DNA of 64,000 bases from Lactobacillus sp. ESL0791 (lineage in GTDB: Bacteria > Bacillota > Bacilli > Lactobacillales > Lactobacillaceae), in contig NZ_JAQTHU010000001.1 of NCBI RefSeq assembly GCF_029433255.1, positions 186,001 to 250,000 on the forward strand. The letters run 5' to 3'. The notes beneath the pieces were generated by a model. It saw nothing but the letters and a program-made list of their open reading frames with translations. It had not been told where the DNA came from and ran no database searches. Below, one piece after another: positions 1 through 12,045 of this stretch. Each line of letters begins with the position of its first letter. The stretch's first letter is position 1. A program made the position numbers and the translations under genes.

Positions 1-359
1 ACCGGCAAAATCACTTGGCCAATCCTGTAATGCCATATTCTGCTGCTAAGTGGGATGCAATCACTTTCACTGATTTTTTGAAAGATGCGCCGCTGCTCAT
101 ACTTAGAAATGCTAAAATCTTAGCTTATAATTTTTTGTTTGCAGATAAAAAAGAGACACTTTCTGTTGTCTGGATGGGTGGCAAACCGGAATATCTTGAT
201 CTTTTGCAGAAAGTGCAGCTGAATTGGGGCCGTACCAGGTTTAGCAAATTCGCCGGTGAGTTTGATTCAACCGACAAGTTGGCTGCCCGCTTTTACCGTC
301 TGCTACCATTTGATTTGTGCCCAGTTTACGAAACCTTTAAAAAGGAATTGACTGATTAG
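1..359 (+). CDS. C-terminal part of an unrecognised protein, possibly a GNAT acetyltransferase
   Basis: The frame is open to the left edge (codons from base 3), so the true start lies outside the window. A TTG at 15 and an ATG at 30 are probably internal. About 119 codons remain, ending at 359. The segment around residues 45-85 of the visible part, a beta-like stretch with VVWMGG followed by a helix and then GEFDST, loosely resembles the end of a GNAT fold, where a GEFDST-like turn precedes the last strand. This is only a shape resemblance and no family motif is decisive. There is no signal peptide or membrane segment in the visible part. No gene follows for 0.7 kb. Confidence 0.55.
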   Translation, partial: RQNHLANPVMPYSAAKWDAITFTDFLKDAPLLILRNAKILAYNFLFADKKETLSVVWMGGKPEYLDLLQKVQLNWGRTRFSKFAGEFDSTDKLAARFYRLLPFDLCPVYETFKKELTD

Positions 360-1072
360 TGCAATAAAAAAACAATTCAGCTAAAAAATTGATTTTTATA
401 AATTATTTGCATCATTTTTTGCAGCTATGAATCAGAAACACGGTGATTGCTGTTATATCTTGCTTAATGCTGCTACAAATCATATTTAAATCACTATAAT
501 CAGTTATGAGTAAATATTACAAACACTTGATAACTTAAGTTGCATAAAGGCTAGACTTCTGTCTTAACTTATGAGTTTAATGTAAGAGCTAATAAATTAA
601 ATTTTTAAATAAATAAACATACTAATCATGCAGTGGCTGATACTCGATAGAATATTGATTCACTGCTTTTTATTTGTAAATTTTTTAGGCTATATAAGTA
701 TAAAAATTTGTTAAACAAAAAAATTTTTAAAATGTTGTGCTACTAATAATATATAATATTGTTTAAAGCAATATTTGTATAGATATTCAAAGGAAGAAAT
801 GCTATTAATTATATTTTTGTCTAGAGCTGAACATGGCTGCTTGTTTCATATTTTTAATATGCTAAATAATAAAAATTGTAAAAGATCAAGCAATATTAGA
901 AAAATTGCTTTTAAAAAATATGTAAAAGACCGTTAGGCAAAACCTTGCGGCCTTTTCGTATTTTTAAGTATATAAAATGTATATCTGATCAATTATCCTG
1001 TACAAATTTTGCTTTAATAGCAAATACTTCTTAAGAAAATTTGGAATAATATAAAGCTACAAGGTGGAAGAA
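360..1072. other. AT-rich noncoding stretch with one terminator-like hairpin
   Basis: No credible coding frame is seen on either strand. The DNA is markedly AT-rich with long A and T runs. It contains a TATAAT at 752-757 without a good -35 box and a hairpin at 924-956. It separates the truncated first gene from the sugar-acid operon and should hold that operon's promoter. I could not place one with confidence. Confidence 0.6.
924..957 (+). terminator. Terminator-like hairpin in the intergenic region
   Basis: AAAAGACCG at 924-932 pairs with CGGCCTTTT at 948-956 with one mismatch, around a 15-base loop. The run of four T is short. No gene ends nearby, since the previous stop is at 357-359. It may end an unannotated short transcript or be a remnant. 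Confidence 0.4.
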
Positions 1073-3130
1073 ATGAATACTAGAATCCAAGAAATAATTT
1101 TCATTTTGTTAGAAAATCCTGATATTAAAGTAAGGGAGATGATGAAGAGACTCACACTAACAAGGCGGCAAGTCAATTACGCTATAAGCCTAATTAACAA
1201 CAAGTTAATTGATAAAGGAATTGAAAAAATAAAGCGAAATTCTGATGGTAGTTTTACATTTTCATCAAGGATAAAAGAGTTGTTGTCAAATTATGAGTCA
1301 GAAAATGGTGAATATAATGTAAAAGATAGGTCTGTAATCATAGTAATGTATTTGCTTTTTTATCCAAATTATACATCACTGGATCATTTAGCTTTACTTC
1401 TCGATTATAGCAAAACGACAATTGTAAATAATTTAAAAGAAGTATCTCGAATGCTTAGAGAATATAATTTAAAACTAAATTATGATCGAAAGCATGGATA
1501 TATTATAAAAGGAGATGAGGAGCAAGTCTTTAGGTTGGCAACTAATTTGGTTCAAAACAATTCAAGTAATCTATTTCAGCGAGCTGCAGATGCCGATAAA
1601 TTGCAACAAAAAGTTTCTAAGCAAGCAATATTATTAATTATGAATGTTGAAGAAAAATTTCAAGCATCTTTTTCTGATAAATATTTTAATAATTTAAAAA
1701 TGATGATTCAGATTATCATTTCTCGAGGTATGAGGGGTAGTAATACAGATGATTATGTTGATTCATTTATTGGTCAGACAAAAGAATATCAGTATTTGCG
1801 CAAAATGCCAATTTTAAAAGAACTAGATAATGCTCACGTTAAATGGATAGCATTAGAAATATTATCAGCTAATGTTTTTGATAAAACTGGTTCTGAAATT
1901 AGTTCTGATGAAATTGCTTTATTTGGTTTTGTTCACCAGATTGTGGAAGGCTTTAAAAGCAAAACTTTAGTTAATATAGACGATCAATCACATTTTGAAA
2001 AAAGGTTATTAAATCATCTCAGACCAGCTTGCTTTCGTGTGAGATATCATCTTCCTAGTATTGAGTTTTCTACAATTGGTAAGTTTTCAAATCATCGAAT
2101 TTTAGAAAATATTATTAGAGAGTTAATTACTCCTTTAGAAAGTTGGTTGGGTACAAATTTTTCGGATGAAGAGGTACAGCTTTTAACTTATTATTTTGGG
2201 TATTTGCTTGTTAAAGGGAATAATACAGATAAGAAAAAAATTATTCAATATAAAGCTGTAGTGGTTTGCTCTAACGGAATTATTATGTCAAATATTTTAT
2301 TACGAATTCTGAAAAATATTTTTCCAGAAATAAATTTTCTTTTTTCGATGTCAGACAGGGAATTTAAAGAATCAGAAAAAAACTTTGATGTAGTATTTTC
2401 AACTATACCTTTAGAAACAAATTTACCTAATTATGTTGTTAAACCTAATATGAATTATTCAGAAAAAATTGCTTTAAAATATCGTGTCTTGAATGATTTA
2501 GGATTGGAAAAAACTGATCAGCAAGTTGAGAACCTAATTAATACTGTCTCTAAATATGCAAAAATTAATGATGCTGGTAAATTGCGTCAAGGTATAACCA
2601 AAGTCCTTCTATCAGAACAAAACATAACTGATGATGAAAATACAAAAATTAATAAGTTTCCGGATCTATTAGATTATATAAAACCTAATTATATTCAAGT
2701 GATAAATCAAAAAAATATTAATTGGAAGGACGCTTTATTTCAAGCTTTGCAACCTTTAGTTAGAGAAAAAATAGTTAACGATGATTATTACACTGAATTA
2801 ATAAAACAGCTATCCAATAGAAATAATTATAGCTTTTTGGGAACAGATATGGCTATACCACATTCCTCACCGGAAAATGGTGTAGAGGGTGATGGAATTG
2901 GTTTTTTAATATCTCGGTGGCCTATTAAATTGCCTTATGGAAAAGAAGTGAGAATTTTAGCACCGATAGCTTTTTTTTACAGAGATCGTTATTTAAAAGC
3001 AATTAATCAATTGGCAGACCTAGCTACTAATAAAGCGATTATTCAAAAAATTCTTAATACACGGTCTTCAGATCAAACATATCAAGTTATTAGAATATAT
3101 ATAGAAAGGAAAAATAAAGGTGAAAGTTGA
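1073..3130 (+). CDS. PRD-containing PTS-controlled transcriptional activator (BglG/MtlR type)
   Basis: This is a multidomain activator that senses PTS phosphorylation, and it leads the sugar-acid PTS operon. In order it shows an N-terminal helix-turn-helix region (about 1-60), a second Mga-like HTH (about 85-150), two PRD domains (about 180-400, with the PRD2-type HLRPA near 310), a Gat-like EIIB domain starting near 395 with VVVCSNGI carrying the phosphocysteine position, and a C-terminal EIIA-like domain (about 550-685) with the phosphohistidine motif IPHSS. The length of 685 residues is normal for the family. I prefer the ATG at 1073, five bases after the SD AAGGTGG (1061-1067). The in-frame GTG at 1064 lies inside that SD. 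It overlaps the aldolase gene by 11 bases. It probably activates its own operon when the substrate is present, which is inferred from context. Confidence 0.9.
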   Translation: MNTRIQEIIFILLENPDIKVREMMKRLTLTRRQVNYAISLINNKLIDKGIEKIKRNSDGSFTFSSRIKELLSNYESENGEYNVKDRSVIIVMYLLFYPNYTSLDHLALLLDYSKTTIVNNLKEVSRMLREYNLKLNYDRKHGYIIKGDEEQVFRLATNLVQNNSSNLFQRAADADKLQQKVSKQAILLIMNVEEKFQASFSDKYFNNLKMMIQIIISRGMRGSNTDDYVDSFIGQTKEYQYLRKMPILKELDNAHVKWIALEILSANVFDKTGSEISSDEIALFGFVHQIVEGFKSKTLVNIDDQSHFEKRLLNHLRPACFRVRYHLPSIEFSTIGKFSNHRILENIIRELITPLESWLGTNFSDEEVQLLTYYFGYLLVKGNNTDKKKIIQYKAVVVCSNGIIMSNILLRILKNIFPEINFLFSMSDREFKESEKNFDVVFSTIPLETNLPNYVVKPNMNYSEKIALKYRVLNDLGLEKTDQQVENLINTVSKYAKINDAGKLRQGITKVLLSEQNITDDENTKINKFPDLLDYIKPNYIQVINQKNINWKDALFQALQPLVREKIVNDDYYTELIKQLSNRNNYSFLGTDMAIPHSSPENGVEGDGIGFLISRWPIKLPYGKEVRILAPIAFFYRDRYLKAINQLADLATNKAIIQKILNTRSSDQTYQVIRIYIERKNKGES

Positions 3131-3737
3131 AGATTATCCCAAATTTACAATAATTTTGCGTAATTATTCGCAAATACAAGCTCATGCAATTTTATTAGCA
3201 TTAAAGGGTTTAGAAAATGAATTTGCAGTAGAAATAACATTGAACACTCCGAATGCGTTTAATATGATTAAAAACTTTAATGATGAATTTGGAGAAAAGT
3301 TGATCATTGGTGCTGGTACAGTACTTGATTTTGAAAGTGAAAAAAAAGCGGTTGAGAATGGAGCACAGTTTTTATTGAGTTCTTGTGTTTTTACTAAAGA
3401 AATGATGTCTTTTGCTAAAAAGAAGAAAGTGATTACAGTTCCAGGTGTAATGACACCAAGTGAAGCCTGGAAAATGCATCAGTATGGAGCTGATATTATT
3501 AAAATTTTTCCTGCAGTTACTGTTGGCCCAGCATTCTTTAAAGCAATAAAAGCACCTTTAGGCAATCTTCGATTGATGGCTGTTGGTGGTATTTCCAGCT
3601 CTAATATCCATGAGTTTTTAACTAATAAAGCAGATTATATTGGAATAGGATCAGGTGCTTTTAAACCTAAAGATGTTGAAAATCTAGACATTGAAAGACT
3701 GCATGCATCTTTAATCGATATAGTTCACAAAAAATAA
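3120..3737 (+). CDS. KDPG/KHG-family aldolase (2-dehydro-3-deoxy-phosphoaldonate aldolase)
   Basis: This is a class I Schiff-base aldolase that splits 2-keto-3-deoxy-6-phosphoaldonates into pyruvate and glyceraldehyde 3-phosphate. Family marks are VEITLNT (catalytic Glu38), GAGTVL (64-69), PGVMTPSEA (108-116) and IIKIFPA with the Schiff-base Lys128. The length of 205 residues is typical. The GTG start at 3120 lies nine bases after AAAGGA and overlaps the regulator end by 11 bases, so the two are translationally coupled. Together with the PTS and the dehydratase it would complete a short path to central metabolism. Sequence alone does not tell KDPG from KDPGal specificity (Eda-like or DgoA-like). 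Confidence 0.88.
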   Translation: MKVEDYPKFTIILRNYSQIQAHAILLALKGLENEFAVEITLNTPNAFNMIKNFNDEFGEKLIIGAGTVLDFESEKKAVENGAQFLLSSCVFTKEMMSFAKKKKVITVPGVMTPSEAWKMHQYGADIIKIFPAVTVGPAFFKAIKAPLGNLRLMAVGGISSSNIHEFLTNKADYIGIGSGAFKPKDVENLDIERLHASLIDIVHKK

Positions 3738-3817
3738 ATAGATGAATACTAACGAATTACCTATATCTAAAATTTCAAATATTTATTTGTAAGATTATGA
3801 ATAGGAAAGAATATGGG

Positions 3818-4288
3818 ATGAATAATATTAATATAGATAAAAAAGATATATTTTTAAATAAAGAATTTAGTTCAAGAAAGCAATTTTATGATTTTATAAC
3901 TAATATTTTACTTGAAGAGGGGAAAATTAAAGATACATATAAAAACAGTATTTTAGTAAGAGAATCTAAATTTCCTACAGGTTTAGATACTGGAGAAATC
4001 AAAGTGGCAATACCACATACTGATTATAATCAATCAAATGTTACGCAGTTGGTTATAACCACATTGAGTAAGCCAATAAAGTTTAAAAAAATGGATAATC
4101 CAGTTGATGAAATAGAAGTTTCTATAATTTTTTTAATTTTATTTAATAAACCTGAAAAACAGCTTTTAATGCTTAAACAAATTATGAACATTATTCAAGA
4201 TCAAGTTTTTCTAAAAAACTTACTTAAACAGAATTCAACGAGTGAGGTAATATCACTTTTTAATAATAAAGAGGAGAATTTATCATGA
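3818..4288 (+). CDS. PTS EIIA component, Gat/fructose-like family
   Basis: This soluble phosphocarrier takes phosphate from HPr and passes it to the EIIB encoded just downstream. The phosphohistidine motif is VAIPHTD, about 60 residues from the start. The rest of the roughly 156-residue protein fits the PTS EIIA type 2 fold, ending in a helical segment with LMLKQIMNIIQDQ. I choose the ATG at 3818 because AGGAAAG (3802-3808) sits at a usable distance. The in-frame ATG at 3797 has no SD and would add seven residues. The stop overlaps the EIIB start in an ATGA. It belongs to the operon running from 1073 to 7956. Confidence 0.88.
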   Translation: MNNINIDKKDIFLNKEFSSRKQFYDFITNILLEEGKIKDTYKNSILVRESKFPTGLDTGEIKVAIPHTDYNQSNVTQLVITTLSKPIKFKKMDNPVDEIEVSIIFLILFNKPEKQLLMLKQIMNIIQDQVFLKNLLKQNSTSEVISLFNNKEENLS

Positions 4289-4584
4289 AAAAGAAAACAG
4301 TAATTGTATGTTGTGCATCGTCAATGATTACTTCAACTATTGCAGCCGGTAAAGTGAGAGATATTGCAAAAAAAATAGGGGCACCAGAACCTCGAATTAT
4401 TCAATGCAAATTTTCTGAGGTGCAAGGCAACATAGAAACGAATGAGGTAGATTTGATTGTCCCGACAGGTAGATTAAATGAAAACGTAACGGGCAATGTC
4501 CCTATGGTTTTAGGTACACCATTTATTACTGGAGTTAATGTTGATGGGGCAGAACAAAAAATTGCAGAAATATTAAAAAATTAA
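4285..4584 (+). CDS. PTS EIIB component, galactitol (Gat) family
   Basis: This 99-residue protein has the usual length for GatB-type EIIB. The P-loop VCCASSMITST near residue 8 carries the phosphocysteine. It takes phosphate from the EIIA encoded upstream and phosphorylates the substrate bound by the EIIC encoded downstream. The start overlaps the EIIA stop by four bases, and AGGAGA lies eight to twelve bases upstream. The Gat family handles galactitol, arabitol and related polyols or sugar acids. The neighbouring dehydratase and aldolase suggest a sugar acid here, which is inference. Confidence 0.9.
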   Translation: MKKKTVIVCCASSMITSTIAAGKVRDIAKKIGAPEPRIIQCKFSEVQGNIETNEVDLIVPTGRLNENVTGNVPMVLGTPFITGVNVDGAEQKIAEILKN

Positions 4585-4602
4585 TGTGAGGAGGTAATAG
4601 TT

Positions 4603-5877
4603 ATGCAATATGTAATAAATGCATTAAATTGGATTAGTCAATTAGGGCCTATGGTAATGATGCCCATAATTATTTTTATTTTAGGTCTAATATTTAGGGT
4701 TAAGTTTGCAACACTAATCAAATCATCATTGACTATTGGTGTAGGTTTTGCTGGAGTAACTATAGTTATTAATTGGTTTGTGGCTCAAGTTGGTCCTTCT
4801 GTTCATTCGATGGTTTCTCATTGGGGTATTCAAACTAGTATTATGGATGTAGGTTGGCCGGCAAGAGCTGCTGCAACTTGGGCATTTCCTTTAGCAGCTG
4901 TAGTCGTTTTTATAGTTTTGGGTATTAATGCACTTATGCTAATTACCAAAATGACTAATACGGTAATGGTGGATTTTTGGAGTTATAATCACTACATTTT
5001 TACCGGTGCGCTTGTTTGGTATTTGACAAAAAGTGCAGGTATTTCTTTATTGGCAGCTGCTTTAGATGCAGCAATTAGCTTTAAATTAGCAGACTGGACA
5101 GCTCCGCTTGCGCAAAAATATTTTGGATTAGAAGGCATTTCTTTTCCAACTGCTAACTCAGTTGGTTGGGCACCGATTGCATGGTTATTAAATAAGTTAT
5201 GGAGTGTTATTCCAGGTATCAAAAATATTGATGCCCGTCCTGAAAAAATTCAAAAAAAGTTTGGTTTTGTTGGTGAGCCACTGTTCATGGGTTTTGTGAT
5301 CGGTGTTTTAATAGGTATCTTAGCTGAAGACAAAGTGGGCAATATTTTAATAGTTGGTATGAGTACAGCAGCTACCATGGTGCTAACACCAAAAATGATG
5401 CAAATATTGATGGAAGGCCTTATTCCATTTGCGAATTCAATTAAAGAGTTATTGAATAAGAAATTTCCAGGTAACAAATTTACTATTGGTGTTGATGCGG
5501 CTTTAACAGTAGCAGATTCATCAGTTATTGCATGTGGTATTATCATGGTTCCTATTACATTAATTTTAGCTGCAATTTTGCCAGGAAATAAACTTCTACC
5601 TATTTCAGATATAGCTTATCAAGCCATGTGGTTGTCTGCTTGGCCAGTAGCATTTGGTAAAGGCAATATTTTTAGAGGGTTGTTGTCGACCTTTGTTATT
5701 ACATGTTGTGTATTATTAATTGCTACTAACTTAGCACCGATTCATACTCAATTGGCTTTAGCAGGTGGCTTTAAGTTAGCTCAAGGTATGCACTACATTT
5801 CTACTGAAGATGCAGGTACACATATTATTGGGTTCTTAATTTATAAGGTAATTGCACTTATAAAAGCTATTTTTTAG
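4603..5877 (+). CDS. PTS EIIC permease, galactitol (Gat) family
   Basis: This membrane channel of 424 residues has about ten to twelve hydrophobic segments, for example near 15-35, 40-60, 92-115 and 225-245. The Gat-type features include a GFAGVT segment near 48, DVGWPARAAATWAFP near 82-96, and TVADSSVIA near 303. It should translocate the substrate while the paired EIIB phosphorylates it. A strong SD, GAGGAGG, precedes the ATG. It is followed 19 bases later by the dehydratase gene. The substrate is unknown. Confidence 0.9.
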   Translation: MQYVINALNWISQLGPMVMMPIIIFILGLIFRVKFATLIKSSLTIGVGFAGVTIVINWFVAQVGPSVHSMVSHWGIQTSIMDVGWPARAAATWAFPLAAVVVFIVLGINALMLITKMTNTVMVDFWSYNHYIFTGALVWYLTKSAGISLLAAALDAAISFKLADWTAPLAQKYFGLEGISFPTANSVGWAPIAWLLNKLWSVIPGIKNIDARPEKIQKKFGFVGEPLFMGFVIGVLIGILAEDKVGNILIVGMSTAATMVLTPKMMQILMEGLIPFANSIKELLNKKFPGNKFTIGVDAALTVADSSVIACGIIMVPITLILAAILPGNKLLPISDIAYQAMWLSAWPVAFGKGNIFRGLLSTFVITCCVLLIATNLAPIHTQLALAGGFKLAQGMHYISTEDAGTHIIGFLIYKVIALIKAIF

Positions 5878-5896
5878 TAGGATGTAGGAGAAATTT

Positions 5897-7042
5897 ATGA
5901 GAATTTCAAATTTTGTTATTTATAAGGTTAAGCCGCGTTGGGTTTTTATTAAAATTAATACAGATGAAGGTGTTTCAGGCTGGGGTGAGATGGTTTCTGG
6001 AACCAAAACCGAAACTGTCGTTGCCGGTGCTAAAGAAATGGCCCAAAAAATAATTGGTAAAAATCCGTTTGAAATCGAGCGAATTTGGCAAAGGCTGCAT
6101 CGTTCTTTCTTCCGAGGTGGTCCTATTAATGGTACTGTTGTTTCTGGAATTGAGATGGCACTATGGGACATTAAAGGTAAGGCGCTAAACTTACCGGTAT
6201 ATGAATTACTCGGTGGTGCCGCACGGGATCGTATTAAGGTGTATTCATGGATTGGAGGAGACCGCCCCTCCGATGTAGTTGCAATGGCACAAGAACGTTG
6301 GGATAAAGGCTTTCGTGCAGTTAAAATGAATGCCACATCGGAAATGCATTATGTTGATTCACTTGATAAAGTTGATGCCGCTGTTAAACGTGTAGCGTCA
6401 ATTCGTGAAAAATTTGGTAATGAAATGGCAATCGGAATCGATTTTCATGGCCGAGTTCATAAGCCCATGGCTAAAGTTTTAGCTAAGGCTTTGGAACCAT
6501 ATCATCCGATGTTTATTGAGGAACCGGTTTTACCTGAGAATGAAGAATATTTTGCTCAAATTGCAAATGAAGTTTCTACACCGATAGCTACTGGTGAGCG
6601 CGTATATACTCGTTGGGGTTTTAAAAACATTTTTAAACAAGGTGCAGTTGATATTGTTCAACCAGATATTTCCCTCTGTGGCGGTCTTTTAGAAGAAAGA
6701 AAGATAGCTGCAATGGCGGAAGCATATGATATGGCGGTTGCACCTCATGCACCATATGGTCCGGTTGCATTAGCAGCCACATTTCAAGTTGATGCCTGCA
6801 CGCCAAATGTGTTCATTCAAGAACAAAGTTTAGGAATTCATTATAATCAAGGATTTGACTTATTGGACTTTGTTAAAAACAAAGAAATTTTTCAATATAA
6901 AGATAGCTTCGTGGATATTCCTAAAGGGCCAGGCTTGGGAATTGAAATGGATGAAGATAAAATTAAGGAAGTTGCTCAAGAAGGATTAATATGGAATAAT
7001 CCTGCATGGGAAAACTATGATGGGACAATTGCTGAATGGTAA
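5897..7042 (+). CDS. D-galactonate dehydratase homologue (enolase superfamily)
   Basis: This is a close homologue of DgoD, which dehydrates D-galactonate to 2-keto-3-deoxygalactonate. The 381-residue length matches. Metal and catalytic positions are present: D182 and H184 in GIDFHGRV, E208 in FIEEPV, E234 in ATGERV, and H284 in APHAPYGP, matching the known DgoD metal ligands and the two catalytic histidines. SWIGGDRPSDV and the C-terminal EW ending are also DgoD-like. By eye its base composition is less AT-rich than the genes on either side, so it may have joined the operon separately. With PTS uptake the substrate could be a 6-phosphoaldonate rather than free galactonate. It overlaps the next gene by seven bases. 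Confidence 0.87.
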   Translation: MRISNFVIYKVKPRWVFIKINTDEGVSGWGEMVSGTKTETVVAGAKEMAQKIIGKNPFEIERIWQRLHRSFFRGGPINGTVVSGIEMALWDIKGKALNLPVYELLGGAARDRIKVYSWIGGDRPSDVVAMAQERWDKGFRAVKMNATSEMHYVDSLDKVDAAVKRVASIREKFGNEMAIGIDFHGRVHKPMAKVLAKALEPYHPMFIEEPVLPENEEYFAQIANEVSTPIATGERVYTRWGFKNIFKQGAVDIVQPDISLCGGLLEERKIAAMAEAYDMAVAPHAPYGPVALAATFQVDACTPNVFIQEQSLGIHYNQGFDLLDFVKNKEIFQYKDSFVDIPKGPGLGIEMDEDKIKEVAQEGLIWNNPAWENYDGTIAEW

Positions 7043-7956
7043 ATACTAATAAAAAAATTAATACGGTTAATGGTAAAATATCTGTTAATTCTATGGGAAT
7101 AACTTATATTCACGAACATTTATATGTAGTACCTAATGAGTTGCCTAAGTATTATGATTATACATTGGATGATATAGATAAAAATATTGCTGAAGCAGTT
7201 TCTTTTAAGGATGCTGGTGGCAATACGATTGTTGATTTAACACCGATTAATTATGGGCGTAGCCCATTGCTGTTAAAGAAAATCGCAAGCAGTGCTGGAA
7301 TAAATGTGGCGTTTGTAACAGGTTTTCATAAGCAAGAGTTTCAACCAAGTTGGATTAAGGATATGACTGATGCGGATATCTATAATTTTTTGACTAATGA
7401 AATCACTGCAGGTGTAACTTCACAGCATCTTTTACCAGCTGGCATGAAATGTGGTACAAGCTATAATAATATAACAGATGATGAAAAAAGAATTATTATT
7501 ATAGAATCTAAAGTTCAAAACGACTTACATATTCCTATAATAACTCATTGTGACCAAGGAACAATGGGGTTAGAACAGTTAGCATTATTTGAAAAAAATA
7601 ATGCTGATCTATCACATATATGTTTGAGTCATGTGGACCTAATGGAAAATGAAAAATACATTGAGCAAATTTGTCAGACTGGCGCTTCCGTATGTTTTGA
7701 TCACATTGGAAGAGATTTGGACAATCATGATGAATTAAAAGTACAGATGATAGTTAAACTTGTACAGAATGGATATGCTGATCAGATATGCTTATCTGGT
7801 GACATGGGACGGAAAAAATATTTCGTATCATATGGCGGGAAGCCAGGCCTTAAATATATTCTTACAACACTAAAAGAGGAGCTGTTGAAGTATATATCAG
7901 AAGAAGATTTTATAAAGATGGTTAAGGATAATCCGCAAAGAATTTTAACATGGTAA
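7036..7956 (+). CDS. Phosphotriesterase-family metal hydrolase, candidate phospho-aldonolactonase
   Basis: This amidohydrolase-superfamily protein (COG1735 type, 306 residues) shows the full binuclear metal site: H26 and H28 in YIHEHLY, a bridging lysine at about K138 in AGMKCG, H171 in ITHCDQG, H199 in LSHVDL and D256 in LSGDMGRKK. Some members of this family from mycoplasmas and other Firmicutes hydrolyse phosphorylated sugar lactones rather than organophosphates, which is established for the family. In this operon a lactonase opening a PTS-phosphorylated aldonolactone would feed the dehydratase. That role is inferred. It is the last gene of the operon and overlaps the dehydratase stop by seven bases. 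Confidence 0.83.
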   Translation: MVNTNKKINTVNGKISVNSMGITYIHEHLYVVPNELPKYYDYTLDDIDKNIAEAVSFKDAGGNTIVDLTPINYGRSPLLLKKIASSAGINVAFVTGFHKQEFQPSWIKDMTDADIYNFLTNEITAGVTSQHLLPAGMKCGTSYNNITDDEKRIIIIESKVQNDLHIPIITHCDQGTMGLEQLALFEKNNADLSHICLSHVDLMENEKYIEQICQTGASVCFDHIGRDLDNHDELKVQMIVKLVQNGYADQICLSGDMGRKKYFVSYGGKPGLKYILTTLKEELLKYISEEDFIKMVKDNPQRILTW

Positions 7957-8043
7957 TTTTTTAAGAAGTTATAAAAAATACTATCTTAATTCTCCCTATT
8001 GAATTTCGTTTGTGAAATTAAGAAAAGAAAATTGCTTAAAATA

Positions 8044-8086
8044 AAAACGATTCATGCTTGCACATAGCAGGTATGAATCGTTTTGT
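8044..8086. terminator. Bidirectional terminator between the sugar-acid operon and thiE
   Basis: AAAACGATTCAT pairs with ATGAATCGTTTT around a loop of about 17 bases (8044-8084). There are A and T runs on both sides, so it can end transcripts from both convergent operons. Confidence 0.85.
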
Positions 8087-8120
8087 TTAAGGAAATACGT
8101 ATGACTTTAAGTCATTAAAA

Positions 8121-8777
8121 TTAATTTATCCACGGTGCATTGCGTATCGCTTGAATGGTTTGTTGATAATTGCTGCTTTGAGCGATTAAGGAAATTACTG
8201 CCGCGCCTGCCGCTTGGGTTTGGGCGATAGCCGGCAGGTCCTCTTCTTTAATACCGCCGATTGCAACGATGGGCCGATTACTATTTTGCACTAATTGCCG
8301 CAAACCGGGAATGCCGATCACTGGCGACGCATCATCTTTTGACTGCGTGGCAAAAATGGGGCCACAGCCGTAATAGTCAATGCCGGAAATTGTGTTAGCC
8401 TTGACTATTTCTGCTAAATTAGAACAAGAATAGCCAACGATCATTTTTTGTCCGACCTCAGTTACCACCTGAGTGATGGCTTCGTCGCTTTGACCAACAT
8501 GAATTCCTTCTGCGTCAACAGCCTTGGCTAGCGCAACGTCGTCATCAACGAAGAATGGTACATGATGTTTTTGACAAAGCTGGTGCAATTTTTGCGCCAT
8601 TGGCACGCGCTCACTTACGGCTAAAGTAGAATTTTGCCCCTTATCACGAAATTGAAAAGCGGTAATTCCGGCTTTCAGAGCCTGTTCAAGAACTGTTGGC
8701 AAATTTTCCTTTGGCTGCAAATCTTGTGTGCCGCAGATGAAATATGCTTCTAGTAATTTTGCATTGAATTTTTTCAT
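8121..8777 (-). CDS. thiE: Thiamine-phosphate synthase
   Basis: ThiE joins HMP pyrophosphate and hydroxyethylthiazole phosphate to thiamine phosphate in the cytosol. The 218-residue TIM-barrel protein shows the family marks FQFRDKG (near 40), VPFFVDDDVALA, GIHVGQSD, YGCGPIFAT and VAIGGI. It is the last gene of thiM-thiD-thiE, seven bases after thiD, and should be controlled by the TPP riboswitch at 10500-10577. With ThiM and ThiD it makes a salvage route from thiazole and HMP. No de novo genes such as thiC or thiG are in the window. Confidence 0.95.
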   Translation of the reverse strand: MKKFNAKLLEAYFICGTQDLQPKENLPTVLEQALKAGITAFQFRDKGQNSTLAVSERVPMAQKLHQLCQKHHVPFFVDDDVALAKAVDAEGIHVGQSDEAITQVVTEVGQKMIVGYSCSNLAEIVKANTISGIDYYGCGPIFATQSKDDASPVIGIPGLRQLVQNSNRPIVAIGGIKEEDLPAIAQTQAAGAAVISLIAQSSNYQQTIQAIRNAPWIN

Positions 8778-8784
8778 TTGGTAA

Positions 8785-9594
8785 TTACCTTGCCTTTGCC
8801 CAGTGGTTCAGGGGCCCGTGACCGTGACCGACTTGGATCGTATCTTTGATTGTTGCCGTGACGTATTTTTTAGCTAGTTTAATTGCTGTTGGCAGATCTT
8901 TACCTAAGGCAATTTGGGCTGTAATGCATGATGCAAGCGTATCGCCCGTGCCATGAGTTCGCTTGGTATGTGTTCGCGGACTGCTTACCCAAAACGAATT
9001 GCCGTCTTCTAGCAAAATATAGTCTTTTGCCTGTTCATCAGGAAAGTGGCCGCCCTTAATCATGACATTTTTAACGCCATAATTTTGCAATTGCGCTGCC
9101 AAGTCTGGATATTGCTCTTGCTTGGTCACTTTTTGTCCGGTTAATTTTTCTGCTTCAGGCAGGTTGGGAGTGACCAAATCTGCCAGAGGCAAAAGTTCCT
9201 TTTTGACAACTGTAACTGCATCTTCACTTAAAAGGGGGGCACCGCCTTTTGCCACCATAACCGGATCAATTGTTGTGAAACCAAAATCGTACTTTTGCAA
9301 ATTTAATGCGACTTGGTGAACGTGAGCAGCATCGCCCAACATGCCCGTCTTACATGCTCGGATATGGAAATCAGCGGCTAGGGATGAACATTGCTGATCA
9401 ATCATTTTGAGTGGCAATAAATATGAGGCCTGAACTCCCAGTGTGTTTTGCGCGGTTACTGCCACAACCACAGCTGTGCCAAAAACATGCTGCATCTGAA
9501 AAGTCTTGAGGTCCGCCATGATACCGGCACCGCCGCCGGAATCGGTACCCGCAATTGTTAAAACTTGCGGAAATGAATTAATTTCTTCAGTCAT
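8785..9594 (-). CDS. thiD: Hydroxymethylpyrimidine/phosphomethylpyrimidine kinase
   Basis: ThiD phosphorylates HMP twice to give HMP pyrophosphate. The 269-residue ribokinase-like protein has TIAGTDSGGGAGI near the start, TIDPVMVAKGG in the middle, and the C-terminal anion-hole motif THGTGDTLAS. It starts 13 bases after the thiM stop behind AGAGGAG. The gene for a candidate HMP permease at 19061-20236 has its own TPP riboswitch, so supply and use of HMP are co-regulated. Confidence 0.95.
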   Translation of the reverse strand: MTEEINSFPQVLTIAGTDSGGGAGIMADLKTFQMQHVFGTAVVVAVTAQNTLGVQASYLLPLKMIDQQCSSLAADFHIRACKTGMLGDAAHVHQVALNLQKYDFGFTTIDPVMVAKGGAPLLSEDAVTVVKKELLPLADLVTPNLPEAEKLTGQKVTKQEQYPDLAAQLQNYGVKNVMIKGGHFPDEQAKDYILLEDGNSFWVSSPRTHTKRTHGTGDTLASCITAQIALGKDLPTAIKLAKKYVTATIKDTIQVGHGHGPLNHWAKAR

Positions 9595-9607
9595 TTTTGC
9601 GCTCCTC

Positions 9608-10399
9608 TTAATCGTAAGAAACGATTTTTTCTAAATCAGCAACCTGTGCTTTGGCTAAGTAATCCATTAAATAGACAGCAAAAGTTCCAGGACCAGCTTC
9701 AGGATGCTCTTGGGCAACTAATTCACCAACCGCACCGAAAACTAAAGTGGCAGTTTGCGCTGCTTCGAATAAATTGTCTGGACTGATGGCGGCAAAAGCG
9801 GCCGTGATACTTGAAAGCATATCGCCGGAACCAACGTGAACTTGAAATAGCGGTGTGCCGTTGTTAACATGAACAACTTTTTTGCCATCAGTAATTGTAT
9901 CAGTTGCTCCGCTGGAAATGACCACACAGTGATATTTCTGGGCCGTAGCTTTAGCAATTTCATCAATATTACCGCTGCCTTCACCTGCGTCAATTCCCTT
10001 GGCATTCCAGGTAAACCCGCCTAAAGCAGCAACCTCGCCAGCATTACCGCGAATAATATCGGCATGAAATGCAGTTAAACATTTTTGCGCAACTTCTAAC
10101 CGGTAGTTAACAGCACCAACTGCCACCGGATCAAGAACGATAGGCTTATGAAACTGATTGGCTAATTCTCCCGCTTTCAGCGTTTGCGCAATCTGTACTT
10201 TAGTTAAAGTACCCAGATTTAATTGTACGGCACCGGCCATTTTGACCATTGGCTCTGCCTCGGCAATTTCCTGGCTCATAATTGGTGAAGCGCCGATTGC
10301 GTTTAGCCCGTTGGCCACATCTTGCACGGTGACAAAATTGGAAATATTTAAAACTACCGGGTTTTGTTGCCGCAGCTGATCTAATAATTTTAATTGCAT
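9608..10399 (-). CDS. thiM: Hydroxyethylthiazole kinase
   Basis: ThiM phosphorylates hydroxyethylthiazole for thiamine salvage. Family features in the 263 residues are NISNFVTVQDVANGLNAIG, SPIMSQ, VLDPVAVGA, IIRGNAGE, and the catalytic region VHVGSGDMLSS, where many homologues have a cysteine. The SD AGGAGG sits upstream of the ATG. It is first in the thiMDE operon, 100 bases downstream of the TPP aptamer. Confidence 0.94.
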   Translation of the reverse strand: MQLKLLDQLRQQNPVVLNISNFVTVQDVANGLNAIGASPIMSQEIAEAEPMVKMAGAVQLNLGTLTKVQIAQTLKAGELANQFHKPIVLDPVAVGAVNYRLEVAQKCLTAFHADIIRGNAGEVAALGGFTWNAKGIDAGEGSGNIDEIAKATAQKYHCVVISSGATDTITDGKKVVHVNNGTPLFQVHVGSGDMLSSITAAFAAISPDNLFEAAQTATLVFGAVGELVAQEHPEAGPGTFAVYLMDYLAKAQVADLEKIVSYD

Positions 10400-10467
10400 A
10401 TAAACCTCCTAAAAAATTAGAAGTGTACCTTTACTTATTGAAGACAAATAAAAAACTTTGCCACATA

Positions 10468-10498
10468 AAAAGTGTCAAAGTTCAATTTGTTTGACACG
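10468..10498 (-). terminator. Expression-platform terminator of the thiM TPP riboswitch
   Basis: On the minus strand GTGTCAAA pairs with TTTGACAC around a ten-base loop, followed by five T. It lies directly after the aptamer, so TPP binding probably favours termination. Confidence 0.8.
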
Positions 10499-10499
10499 T

Positions 10500-10577
10500 T
10501 CCTACGCGAGTTCTAACTCACAGGTTCAAAGGGTCTGAAACTTTTGTTTCATCTCAGCTTAAAGGCACCCCTCGTGT
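10500..10577 (-). promoter_or_regulatory. TPP riboswitch upstream of thiMDE
   Basis: The minus strand carries the conserved THI-box blocks in order: GGGGTGCC, GCTGAGA, ACCCTTTGAACCTG, GTTAGAACTCGCGTAGG. The aptamer is followed by an intrinsic terminator at 10468-10498 and then thiM. The layout implies repression by thiamine pyrophosphate. Confidence 0.95.
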
Positions 10578-10721
10578 TATTGTTATCAGCTATATTATAT
10601 CTATTTTATGGAACAAAAACAAATAAAGGCAATAGATAAAATTGTGTTTTCCCATCTGGAATTTCATTGCTTCTTTTTGTTATTATAGATAGGGTAAAAT
10701 TTTAAGAGGGAGAACGGTTTG

Positions 10722-11642
10722 ATGGTAACGCAAAAGCAGAGACAATTATGGGCATTTTTGGCAGGATTAGCCTGCGTGATGTGGGGGATTTCCGGCTTAT
10801 TTGCTAAATCTTTGTTTAATTATAGCTCGGAAATTACACCGATTTGGCTGTCACAGGTGAGAATGGTCACTTCTGGCATTATCTTGTTGATTTCTGCGGG
10901 AATTATGGGACAAAAACCGCTAGCAACGCTGAAAAATAAGCATGATGCACTGACACTTGTTGCCTATGGCATTTTTGGCTTGCTGCCGGTACAGCTCTTT
11001 TATTTCATCACCGTGCAAAAGGCTAATGCGTCGATTGCAACCATCTTGCAATTTATTGGCCCCTTTTTTGTGATGGCCTACATGACACTGACGCATAAGC
11101 AAACTTTGCGGCGGCTGGATTTAATTGCCGCTTTTGCTGCTTTTATAGGTGTGGTTTTGCTGGCAACGCATGGTGATTTCAGTCACTTGGCGATTACGCC
11201 AGAGGTGTTGATGTGGGGCTTGTTAGCAGCAATGGGTGTTGCTACTAATACTCTGATCCCCATTAATATTTTGCACCGGGTTTCCAGCTTAGTAGTGACT
11301 GGCTGGGGCTTGTTAGCGTCAGGCATCTGTCTAATTATTGTTCATCCGCAAATGCCGCACTTAGCTCATCCCAGTCAAATTATTTTTCCGGTCAGCATGG
11401 TTGTTATTATCGGCACCTTAATTCCTTTTCAATTGATGACCAATTCATTGCGCTTTATTAAACCAACAACTGCTAGTTTGCTTGATGCCTTTGAACCATT
11501 TTCAGCTACAATTGGTTCGGTATTGTGTTTTGGTTTGGTGTTGAAGCCGCTAGACTGGGTTGGCTCAATCTTGGTGGTTTTAGCGGCGATGGCGTTAAAT
11601 ATTATGCCGCGCAAGAAGAAATCTAAGATTGACTCAATGTAG
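10722..11642 (+). CDS. EamA/DMT-family transporter
   Basis: This integral membrane protein of about 306 residues has ten hydrophobic segments arranged as two EamA repeats (about 8-140 and 158-295). The first repeat begins with LACVMWGISGLFAKSLF. Such proteins export or import small metabolites. The substrate cannot be read from the sequence. The ATG at 10722 and the TTG at 10719 are both possible, with AAGAGGG at 10704-10710. It is divergent from the thi operon but has no TPP riboswitch of its own, so a thiamine role is not supported. Confidence 0.85.
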   Translation: MVTQKQRQLWAFLAGLACVMWGISGLFAKSLFNYSSEITPIWLSQVRMVTSGIILLISAGIMGQKPLATLKNKHDALTLVAYGIFGLLPVQLFYFITVQKANASIATILQFIGPFFVMAYMTLTHKQTLRRLDLIAAFAAFIGVVLLATHGDFSHLAITPEVLMWGLLAAMGVATNTLIPINILHRVSSLVVTGWGLLASGICLIIVHPQMPHLAHPSQIIFPVSMVVIIGTLIPFQLMTNSLRFIKPTTASLLDAFEPFSATIGSVLCFGLVLKPLDWVGSILVVLAAMALNIMPRKKKSKIDSM

Positions 11643-11669
11643 TAATGCTTTAATTGAATAAATTTAAGT

Positions 11670-11705
11670 AATAGAGCATCTGAAACTAAAAGTGTTCTAT
11701 TTTTT
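11670..11705 (+). terminator. Intrinsic terminator after the EamA transporter gene
   Basis: AATAGAGCA pairs with TGTTCTATT (one G-T pair) and is followed by a T run. Confidence 0.75.
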
Positions 11706-11763
11706 GCCTCGGTTATAAGATAGTATAATTATAAGTATAAAAATAGTAGTAAGGAGGAAAATG

Positions 11764-12045
11764 ATGCCGATTAAAGAGAAAAAGAGAATTCAAGTACAAG
11801 TTGATAAGGATTTAGCAAATGATACAGAAAAAATCTTAAATGAATTAGGGATGACGCCTACAACCGCAATAACCTTACTTTATAAACAGATAGCTGCAGA
11901 TGGAGCTTTTCCTTTTCGTCCAGCTTTGAGTGCAAGTGAAAAAGCTACCTTACAATTTTTAAAAGAAACTGAAGACACACCTGTAACTACCTTTACAACC
12001 GATGAAGAGGTGCAAGATTGGCTGGACGATCCGGATGAAGACTAA
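11764..12045 (+). CDS. RelB/DinJ-family antitoxin
   Basis: This is a 93-residue ribbon-helix-helix antitoxin. The N-terminal strand RIQVQVDKDL is followed by the helix pair typical of DinJ, with ILNELGMTPTTAITLLYKQI and then the DGAFPF turn. The acidic tail DDPDED fits a toxin-binding end. The ATG at 11764 is better spaced from AAGGAGG (11751-11757) than the adjacent ATG at 11761. The stop overlaps the toxin gene by 11 bases, a usual module layout. It probably represses its own promoter and neutralises the downstream toxin. Confidence 0.85.
   Translation: MPIKEKKRIQVQVDKDLANDTEKILNELGMTPTTAITLLYKQIAADGAFPFRPALSASEKATLQFLKETEDTPVTTFTTDEEVQDWLDDPDED

Follow-up and report, generated by a model that had tools for sequence, protein, structure and literature searches.

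Near the start of a 64,000-nucleotide stretch of the Lactobacillus sp. ESL0791 genome (contig NZ_JAQTHU010000001.1, positions 186,001 to 250,000; hereafter the window, whose numbering we use) lies an operon that combines a Gat-type phosphotransferase system (PTS) with homologs of galactonate-degrading enzymes. In our view the operon probably specifies the De Ley-Doudoroff pathway for D-galactonate in a PTS-first form, with phosphorylation accompanying import. Comparing the operon with its relatives further inclines us, with somewhat less assurance, to the view that the DgoD clade of PTS operons comprises, to our knowledge, the first sugar-acid dehydratases of the mandelate-racemase branch to act on a phosphorylated sugar acid; that this clade had a single origin, in which one loop of the capping domain was rebuilt into a phosphate site; and that the clade created a kinase-free galactonate pathway, which later split into acid- and lactone-importing forms through a joint swap of EIIC and a phospho-lactonase.

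Every reaction in this scheme, along with the identity of the substrate, phosphorylation at C6, the lactone step, and the regulation, we infer from sequence comparison. EIIA, EIIB, and EIIC would import D-galactonate or, in this operon more likely, D-galactono-1,4-lactone, phosphorylating C6; galactonate 1,4-lactone leaves C6 free, and its phosphorylation there is therefore chemically possible. The hydrolase of the phosphotriesterase (PTE) family would open the phosphorylated lactone to 6-phosphogalactonate, which the DgoD-clade dehydratase would convert to 2-keto-3-deoxy-6-phosphogalactonate (KDPGal), and the aldolase would cleave KDPGal to pyruvate and glyceraldehyde 3-phosphate. The PRD protein probably turns the operon on, gated by the PTS.

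The seven genes run in the same direction on the forward strand, from about 1073 to 7956, with overlaps or short gaps, in the order PRD regulator, aldolase, EIIA, EIIB, EIIC, DgoD homolog, PTE-family hydrolase (Table 1). All seven proteins score above the curated Pfam cut-offs of their families; EIIC reaches 238.3 bits against PF03611 (cut-off 24.2), and EIIA and EIIB are separate genes, as a Gat-family PTS requires. A preliminary description of the locus had read these genes as one compact operon, and open reading frame (ORF) calls, Pfam assignments, and recurrence in relatives confirm it. Its statements that the DgoD homolog keeps all metal and catalytic residues (D182, H184, E208, E234, H284) and that the hydrolase has a complete metal site (H26, H28, K138, H171, H199, D256) were likewise borne out; the roles of the active-site positions in the aldolase, DgoD, hydrolase, EIIA, and EIIB are those we assume from family knowledge. 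The longest ORF of the regulator begins at GTG 1064, but we prefer ATG 1073, preceded by AAGGTGG at 1061-1067; translation of EIIA could instead begin at an internal ATG, at 3818.

The arrangement is more than chance, because the same gene order recurs in dozens of genomes. A dehydratase scan of a genome contig collection gave at least 592 matching stretches and at least 527 relatives, of which the best 80 were kept; with 18 regions from other genomes (some possibly of the same species as other loci), 11 plasmid stretches, E. coli K-12, and the window, these make 111 DgoD loci. The best 80 were picked by nearness to the window DgoD and therefore sample a single clade; in 79 of them DgoD has a Gat-type EIIC no more than 5 kb away, the remaining locus, L075, being on a 3.5-kb contig too short to judge. 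By the same measure 85 of the 111 loci are PTS-linked and 25 are not. The order aldolase-EIIA-EIIB-EIIC-DgoD, mostly with a regulator in front, occurs in Lactobacillaceae, Enterococcaceae, Streptococcaceae, Carnobacteriaceae, Aerococcaceae, clostridia, and coriobacteria, and a PRD homolog occupies the equivalent position in many Lactobacillales relatives. We also sampled 295 genomes of the order, 110 of which match the dehydratase at E ≤ 1e-3. Nineteen carry a DgoD at 64% identity or more, the next best being 34%, and in all 19 of these DgoD-PTS genomes (the window, G172, and 17 check regions) a Gat-type EIIC adjoins DgoD. In one genome, G239 (L142), the EIIC gene is split, its two parts lying about 13 kb from each other and DgoD following the second.

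The window DgoD is 50% identical to E. coli DgoD and scores 614.7 bits against the NCBIfam galactonate dehydratase equivalog (cut-off 311). In a quick maximum-likelihood tree of the 111 DgoD sequences (108 different), all 85 PTS-linked DgoDs and L075 share a branch (SH-aLRT 100, length 0.51) that contains no further sequence. We derived discriminating columns from 77 PTS-linked sequences against 22 others, setting aside L075, L124-L126, and eight rows whose EIIC falls below 35%, and then counted the main columns in all 111. The metal and catalytic set (E. coli D183, H185, E209, E235, H285) is kept in 85/85 PTS-linked and 26/26 other DgoDs; outside the metal site the two groups differ at many positions. 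Capping-domain loop 34-38 is SG[TA][KR]T in 84/84 readable PTS-linked DgoDs (L016 has a gap), while sites 34-36 are [VIL]E[GA] in 23 of the 26 others (L122 and L128 have gaps; L075 has the PTS form). Site 87 is M in 84/85 PTS-linked sequences and Q in 25/26 others; site 260 is L in 76, M in 8, and I in 1 of the 85, and H in 25/26 others; site 287 is Y in 85/85 and L in 25/26 others, L075 being the exception at all three. Site 285 is A in 85/85, against C in 20, N in 3, A in 2, and S in 1 of the 26 others. The window protein thus carries S34-G-T-K-T38, M87, L260, A285, and Y287, with SGTKT, M87, L260, and Y287 replacing the canonical [VIL]E[GA] loop and E. coli Q88, H261, and L288.

An AlphaFold2 model of the window DgoD (26 sequences, mean pLDDT 84.7, pTM 0.88) places residues 34-37 in a loop between strand 27-33 and helix 38-50; positions 285 and 287 come just after the catalytic H284. 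We take this loop to correspond to the “50s loop” with Tyr54 of mandelate racemase. A different loop in the PTS-linked clade is as expected if the substrate carries phosphate, and in the model loop 34-38, at a helix N-terminus, having lost a glutamate and gained Ser-Gly-Thr-Lys-Thr, is a plausible candidate for an anion or phosphate site. Searches of the open-access literature on enolase-superfamily and mandelate-racemase loops gave nothing useful on how loop 34-38 might contact the substrate. Of 7998 candidates scored in a protein search, 7923 are DgoD relatives at E ≤ 1e-100; the signature is present in 120 of the best 120 of these 7923, which are all nearest the window, the split between the two kinds lying outside their reach.

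Two plasmids of Enterococcus faecium display both kinds of DgoD. One (L128) has DgoD, DgoK, and aldolase genes, with Q, H, and L at the marker sites of DgoD and a loop unreadable in the ORF; in contrast, the other (L129) has a PTS operon whose DgoD carries SGTKT, M, L, and Y. The L128 cluster (7001-9784) lies near lactose PTS genes. L129 and L130 place the hydrolase-free kind of operon on enterococcal plasmids typed as conjugative; the operon of L130 is flanked by two IS1216 copies, and L129 has one IS1216 and a dfrG resistance gene downstream.

The PTS-linked operons differ in their EIIC. Identity to the window EIIC is bimodal, with 25 loci at 62% or more (kind A), 60 at 43% or less, and none between. 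Within 8 kb and on the same strand, a hydrolase homolog accompanies kind A EIIC in 25/25 loci and other EIICs in 0/60 (Fisher p = 4.6e-22, without correction for relatedness). Among the 60, sequence extends for 8 kb in both directions in 42 and for at least 1.2 kb past DgoD in 56. L078, counted among the 25, is a relic in which a decayed PTE-family gene (11136-11979) follows a PTS-type DgoD. On the DgoD tree kind A needs 11 changes, at least 8 of them forced by supported branches, and EIIC kind and hydrolase switch together in 8/8 independent pairs (p = 0.0078). The hydrolase gene comes after DgoD in 15 of the 25 loci and 6.1-7.1 kb upstream in nine, and in the remaining one it separates EIIC from DgoD; close adjacency alone is therefore not enough to account for the coupling. 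One operon of each kind occurs in Lacticaseibacillus zeae (L018, L019) and likewise in Enterococcus malodoratus (L038, L050), which suggests two substrates. The substrate of kind A would be D-galactono-1,4-lactone and that of the other, commoner kind D-galactonate, each entering as its 6-phosphate. The preliminary description had proposed a phosphate-first route with lactone opening as one of its steps. Four comparative tests, of kinase neighborhood, DgoD loop, aldolase residue, and hydrolase-EIIC pairing, might have told against the route but did not, and its logic, sharpened by comparison, holds; the lactone step, by contrast, seems to belong to one EIIC kind and to stand outside the core pathway.

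The best solved-structure match of the hydrolase is 3PNZ, which we take to be Listeria lmo2620, followed by phosphotriesterase homology protein (4LEF, 1BF6) and 3MSR/3OVG. A set of 99 proteins, made up of the query and those at least 43% identical to it, retains the metal ligands in 97 to 99 members and the bridging lysine K138 in all 99; 98 have K or R at position 259, and 97 keep Y262. In the alignment to 3MSR/3OVG, R259 and Y262 fall on an R-x-x-Y motif. Korczynska and colleagues reportedly found in 2014 that this motif of Mycoplasma MS0025, presumably 3OVG, binds the phosphate of the substrate, and we propose R259/Y262 as a putative phosphate contact. One relative of the hydrolase, P0208, carries the JGI name 5-phospho-D-xylono-1,4-lactonase.

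A membrane-type protein of 143-200 residues stands behind DgoD in 34 loci, all with a non-A EIIC and without the hydrolase (for example L035:11177-11779 and L011:11152-11610); the one such protein scanned has no Pfam match.

The aldolase is consistent with a galactonate-derived intermediate. Its V155 aligns with V154 of E. coli DgoA, the site of T161 in 2-keto-3-deoxy-6-phosphogluconate (KDPG) aldolase, and E38 and the Schiff-base K128 are present. A passage of PMC4915726 describes this V154/T161 site as affecting KDPG/KDPGal stereoselectivity. Valine occupies it in 83 of the 84 PTS-linked loci with an aldolase and isoleucine in one; among 13 non-PTS loci with an aldolase, seven have valine and six threonine. 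The genome's second, unlinked aldolase has threonine, the KDPG type, and the two therefore look specialized for different epimers.

A pathway that phosphorylates on import would dispense with a kinase for 2-keto-3-deoxygluconate (KDG) or 2-keto-3-deoxygalactonate (KDGal), and the operon contains no kinase gene. The DgoK family (DGOK, PF05035) has no match in this genome or in any of the 19 DgoD-PTS genomes, but does match in the E. coli control. A 2-keto-3-deoxy-sugar-acid kinase accompanies DgoD, at most 5 kb away and on the same strand, in 14 of 25 evaluable non-PTS loci; the PTS-linked loci, 73 of which have 5 kb of sequence on both sides, yield a PfkB-type match in only two of 85 (L020, L022). 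At 31.6 bits each, against 373.7-450.1 for the intact KdgKs of L049 and L062-L064 with the same KdgK model, we rejected these two as KDG kinases; even counting them, the contrast is 2/85 against 14/25. The neighborhood comparison of the dehydratase clade suggested by the preliminary description thus gives 85 PTS-linked DgoDs in a single clade with a kinase near at most two. Its statement that no KDG kinase is present holds for the operon but not for the genome, which has a KDG-type kinase beside a KDPG aldolase about 125 kb off. Across genomes, relatives of this genome's own KdgK at E ≤ 1e-20 occur in 8/19 DgoD-PTS genomes and 98/276 others (p = 0.62); with no association, the KDG-kinase family appears uncoupled from the operon. 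We accordingly rejected a kinase in trans: one is present here, but its family does not go with the operon.

Several observations weigh against the PTS-first reading. The unlinked pair, a KDPG aldolase followed by a PfkB-type kinase (G000:C1:60166-61846) that resembles KDG/KDGal kinases but scores below cut-off, offers a possible means of phosphorylating a free keto-acid. Four Clostridium loci (L053, where KdgK is in two pieces, and L062-L064) have a KdgA-KdgK pair 6.7-7.9 kb upstream of DgoD and on its strand, and the KdgK of L049 (373.7 bits) lies 6.3 kb downstream; with L072 (77.6 bits), these are the six PTS loci with PfkB-type matches 5-8.5 kb from DgoD. In the 17 further check regions, PfkB-type genes occur 3.2 kb downstream in L150 (63.1 bits) and 5-7 kb away in L153 and L155 (115.7 and 77.3 bits). 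Eleven of the 25 non-PTS loci also have no kinase within 5 kb. The PTS-linked clade arose once (1 change; 1 independent pair), and the absence of a kinase and the loop signature are therefore not independent confirmations; the signature is a strong clade marker, not repeated evidence. EIIC and hydrolase may partly be inherited as a block. Finally, several proteins score below the cut-offs of named families: the aldolase scores 126.2 bits against a cut-off of 207 for PRK09140 (2-dehydro-3-deoxy-6-phosphogalactonate aldolase), the hydrolase 112.9 against 630 for the NF045706 family, and EIIA, EIIB, and EIIC fall below their NCBIfam cut-offs, their best matches all being galactitol-type (EIIC has 401.6 bits against TIGR00827, cut-off 542.2).

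Beside the unlinked aldolase-kinase pair we noted by eye a LacI-type regulator (G000:C1:59030-61846, L003:9031-11847), with no transporter directly adjacent.

The PTS-first logic could apply to another aldonate or lactone, such as talonate, another hexonate, or a lactone other than galactono-1,4-lactone, with another 6-phosphoaldonate giving KDPGal or KDPG. D-talonate would yield the same KDPGal, the presence of distinct EIIC kinds points to two or more substrates, some operons contain additional enzymes, and the many differences of PTS-linked DgoDs outside the metal site would suit a changed substrate; the near-universal KDPGal-type valine and the very strong match to the DgoD equivalog speak for galactonate, and we consider a different substrate unlikely.

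Alternatively, DgoD might act on free galactonate, with the unlinked KdgK or another PfkB kinase phosphorylating the keto-acid and the PTS importing something else. The unlinked pair in this genome and the Clostridium pairs speak for such a route, but the operon has no free-acid transporter, the KdgK relative is no commoner in DgoD-PTS genomes than elsewhere, and DGOK is absent from all 19 (a result that covers the DGOK family and not other PfkB kinases). In G199, moreover, the operon's KDPG aldolase is the only one, and such a KdgK is absent. We judge this route very unlikely. Least credible of all, in our estimate, is that the PTS imports a galactitol-like polyol or sugar, that an unlinked dehydrogenase oxidizes it, and that the operon enzymes then serve as a salvage branch: EIIC does belong to the galactitol-type EIIC-GAT family and some coriobacterial and thermophile operons add a 2-hydroxyacid dehydrogenase, but EIIC stays below the galactitol cut-off, the window operon has no dehydrogenase, and none recurs in the maps of Lactobacillales relatives, whose gene clusters are partly annotated, so that we rejected polyol import with a missing dehydrogenase.

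The PTS-first galactonate reading is preferred here for the window operon; some related operons contain further genes. Operons of thermophiles and related bacteria (L068, L069, L077, L086; L110 and L111 look similar) combine another EIIC kind, a 2-hydroxyacid dehydrogenase, a galactarate/altronate dehydratase C-terminal protein, a PTS-type DgoD, and a KdgA-like aldolase, and are possibly a further variant with another substrate. In coriobacterial L055 and L058-L061 a 2-hydroxyacid dehydrogenase lies upstream and an IlvD/Edd-family dehydratase downstream of the hydrolase. In clostridial L079 (11095-12903), L080, and L081 a further gene directly follows DgoD; the one scanned has PTS enzyme I domains.

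Upstream of the operon, an AT-rich gap of 704 bases separates a further ORF from the longest ORF of the regulator, and this leader contains a hairpin followed by T residues at 916-975 (fold -16.6 kcal/mol). Downstream, three ORFs that we named by eye as thiE-, thiD-, and thiM-like (8121-10582, reverse strand) converge on the operon; a thiamine pyrophosphate (TPP) riboswitch at 10482-10582, the sole Rfam match in positions 1-12000 of the window, precedes them. The strong hairpin between the two gene sets (Table 1) was missed by the consensus terminator scan, which gave 6 terminator-like sites against 3.6 in shuffles; promoter-like sites were not enriched (38 against 42.1).

Table 1. Genes of the operon and the hairpin that follows it, in window coordinates.
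Feature	Position	Strand	Family matches, residues, or fold
PRD-type transcriptional regulator with Mga helix-turn-helix (HTH), PRD, and C-terminal EIIA-like domain	1073..3130	+	PF00874, PF05043, PF00359
KDPGal-type 2-keto-3-deoxy-6-phospho-aldonate aldolase	3120..3737	+	E38, K128, V155; Pfam Aldolase
PTS EIIA (Gat-like), phospho-site His74	3797..4288	+	PTS_EIIA_2 (PF00359)
PTS EIIB (Gat-like), Cys9/Cys10	4285..4584	+	PTS_IIB (PF02302)
PTS EIIC, EIIC-GAT family, kind A (co-occurs with PTE-family hydrolase)	4603..5877	+	EIIC-GAT (PF03611)
DgoD-family (enolase superfamily) dehydratase, PTS-linked clade, proposed 6-phosphogalactonate dehydratase	5897..7042	+	MR_MLE_N and MR_MLE_C
PTE-family (COG1735-like) hydrolase, proposed phospho-aldono-1,4-lactonase	7036..7956	+	Pfam PTE
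Strong hairpin between operon and convergent thi genes, possibly a bidirectional terminator	8044..8084	.	Fold of 8031-8096, -29.8 kcal/mol

Searches of 5.39 million open-access papers, aimed at the route, its enzymes, or growth tests, gave nothing in which we recognized a galactonate PTS pathway, subscription literature being outside our scope. A 2024 review of KDGal metabolism, in the parts available, places bacterial phosphorylation at the level of the keto-acid only, and neither “phosphotransferase” nor “PTS” occurs in the main text as available (PMC11219438). In a genome comparison of Enterococcus faecalis, dgoD, PTS-Gat EIIA/B/C (as galactose-metabolism genes), and eda are among the blood-specific genes, and the passage concerned proposes no pathway for dgoD and the PTS-Gat genes (PMC6042284). 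The available main text of a regulon reconstruction for lactic acid bacteria has no mention of galactonate (PMC3616900), and in the relevant part of a Streptococcus suis comparison the sole mention is a gene list that includes a KDPGal aldolase with the glucuronide genes (PMC3142484).

If the proposal is true, phospho-galactonate dehydratases may make up a large share of what is now named “galactonate dehydratase”; residues 34-38, 87, 260, 285, and 287 would separate the two kinds and correct annotation and metabolic models. The clade would clearly exemplify the acquisition of a phosphorylated substrate within the enolase superfamily. The pathway would show a way for lactobacilli and enterococci to use galactonate or its lactone at the cost of one phosphoenolpyruvate (PEP), without a kinase, and from it follows a prediction of which EIIC transports the acid and which one the lactone.

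The closest known system is E. coli dgo, the De Ley-Doudoroff pathway of DgoT, DgoD, DgoK, DgoA, and DgoR, with which the operon shares a homologous dehydratase, a KDPGal-type aldolase, and, as proposed here, the end products pyruvate and glyceraldehyde 3-phosphate, judging from the account of dgo in the available part of PMC11219438. It differs in having a PTS in place of the DgoT symporter, no DgoK, a PRD regulator in place of DgoR, and a different DgoD loop, with dehydration probably following phosphorylation. The transporter resembles the Gat-family PTS for galactitol (GatABC), the best NCBIfam matches of its three components being galactitol-type; galactitol Gat systems are linked to polyol-phosphate dehydrogenase and tagatose-bisphosphate aldolase, whereas here all three components fall below the galactitol cut-offs and are linked to aldonate enzymes. 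With the phospho-furanose lactonases of the PTE family, the hydrolase shares the bridging lysine of 3PNZ and the R-x-x-Y of 3MSR/3OVG, but its proposed substrate is a hexono-lactone 6-phosphate and theirs a pentono-lactone 5-phosphate. PTS-first routes for sugar acids are known in the gluconate PTS, the D-glucosaminate PTS, and the ascorbate Ula system, which likewise import their substrate as a phosphate and then catabolize a phospho-acid or phospho-lactone, but do so with transporters of the mannose or ascorbate families and dehydratases or lactonases of unrelated families. The operon would be a variant of a known pathway type, and the main additions made here to the preliminary description are the putative phospho-type DgoD clade and the coupling of EIIC to a hydrolase.

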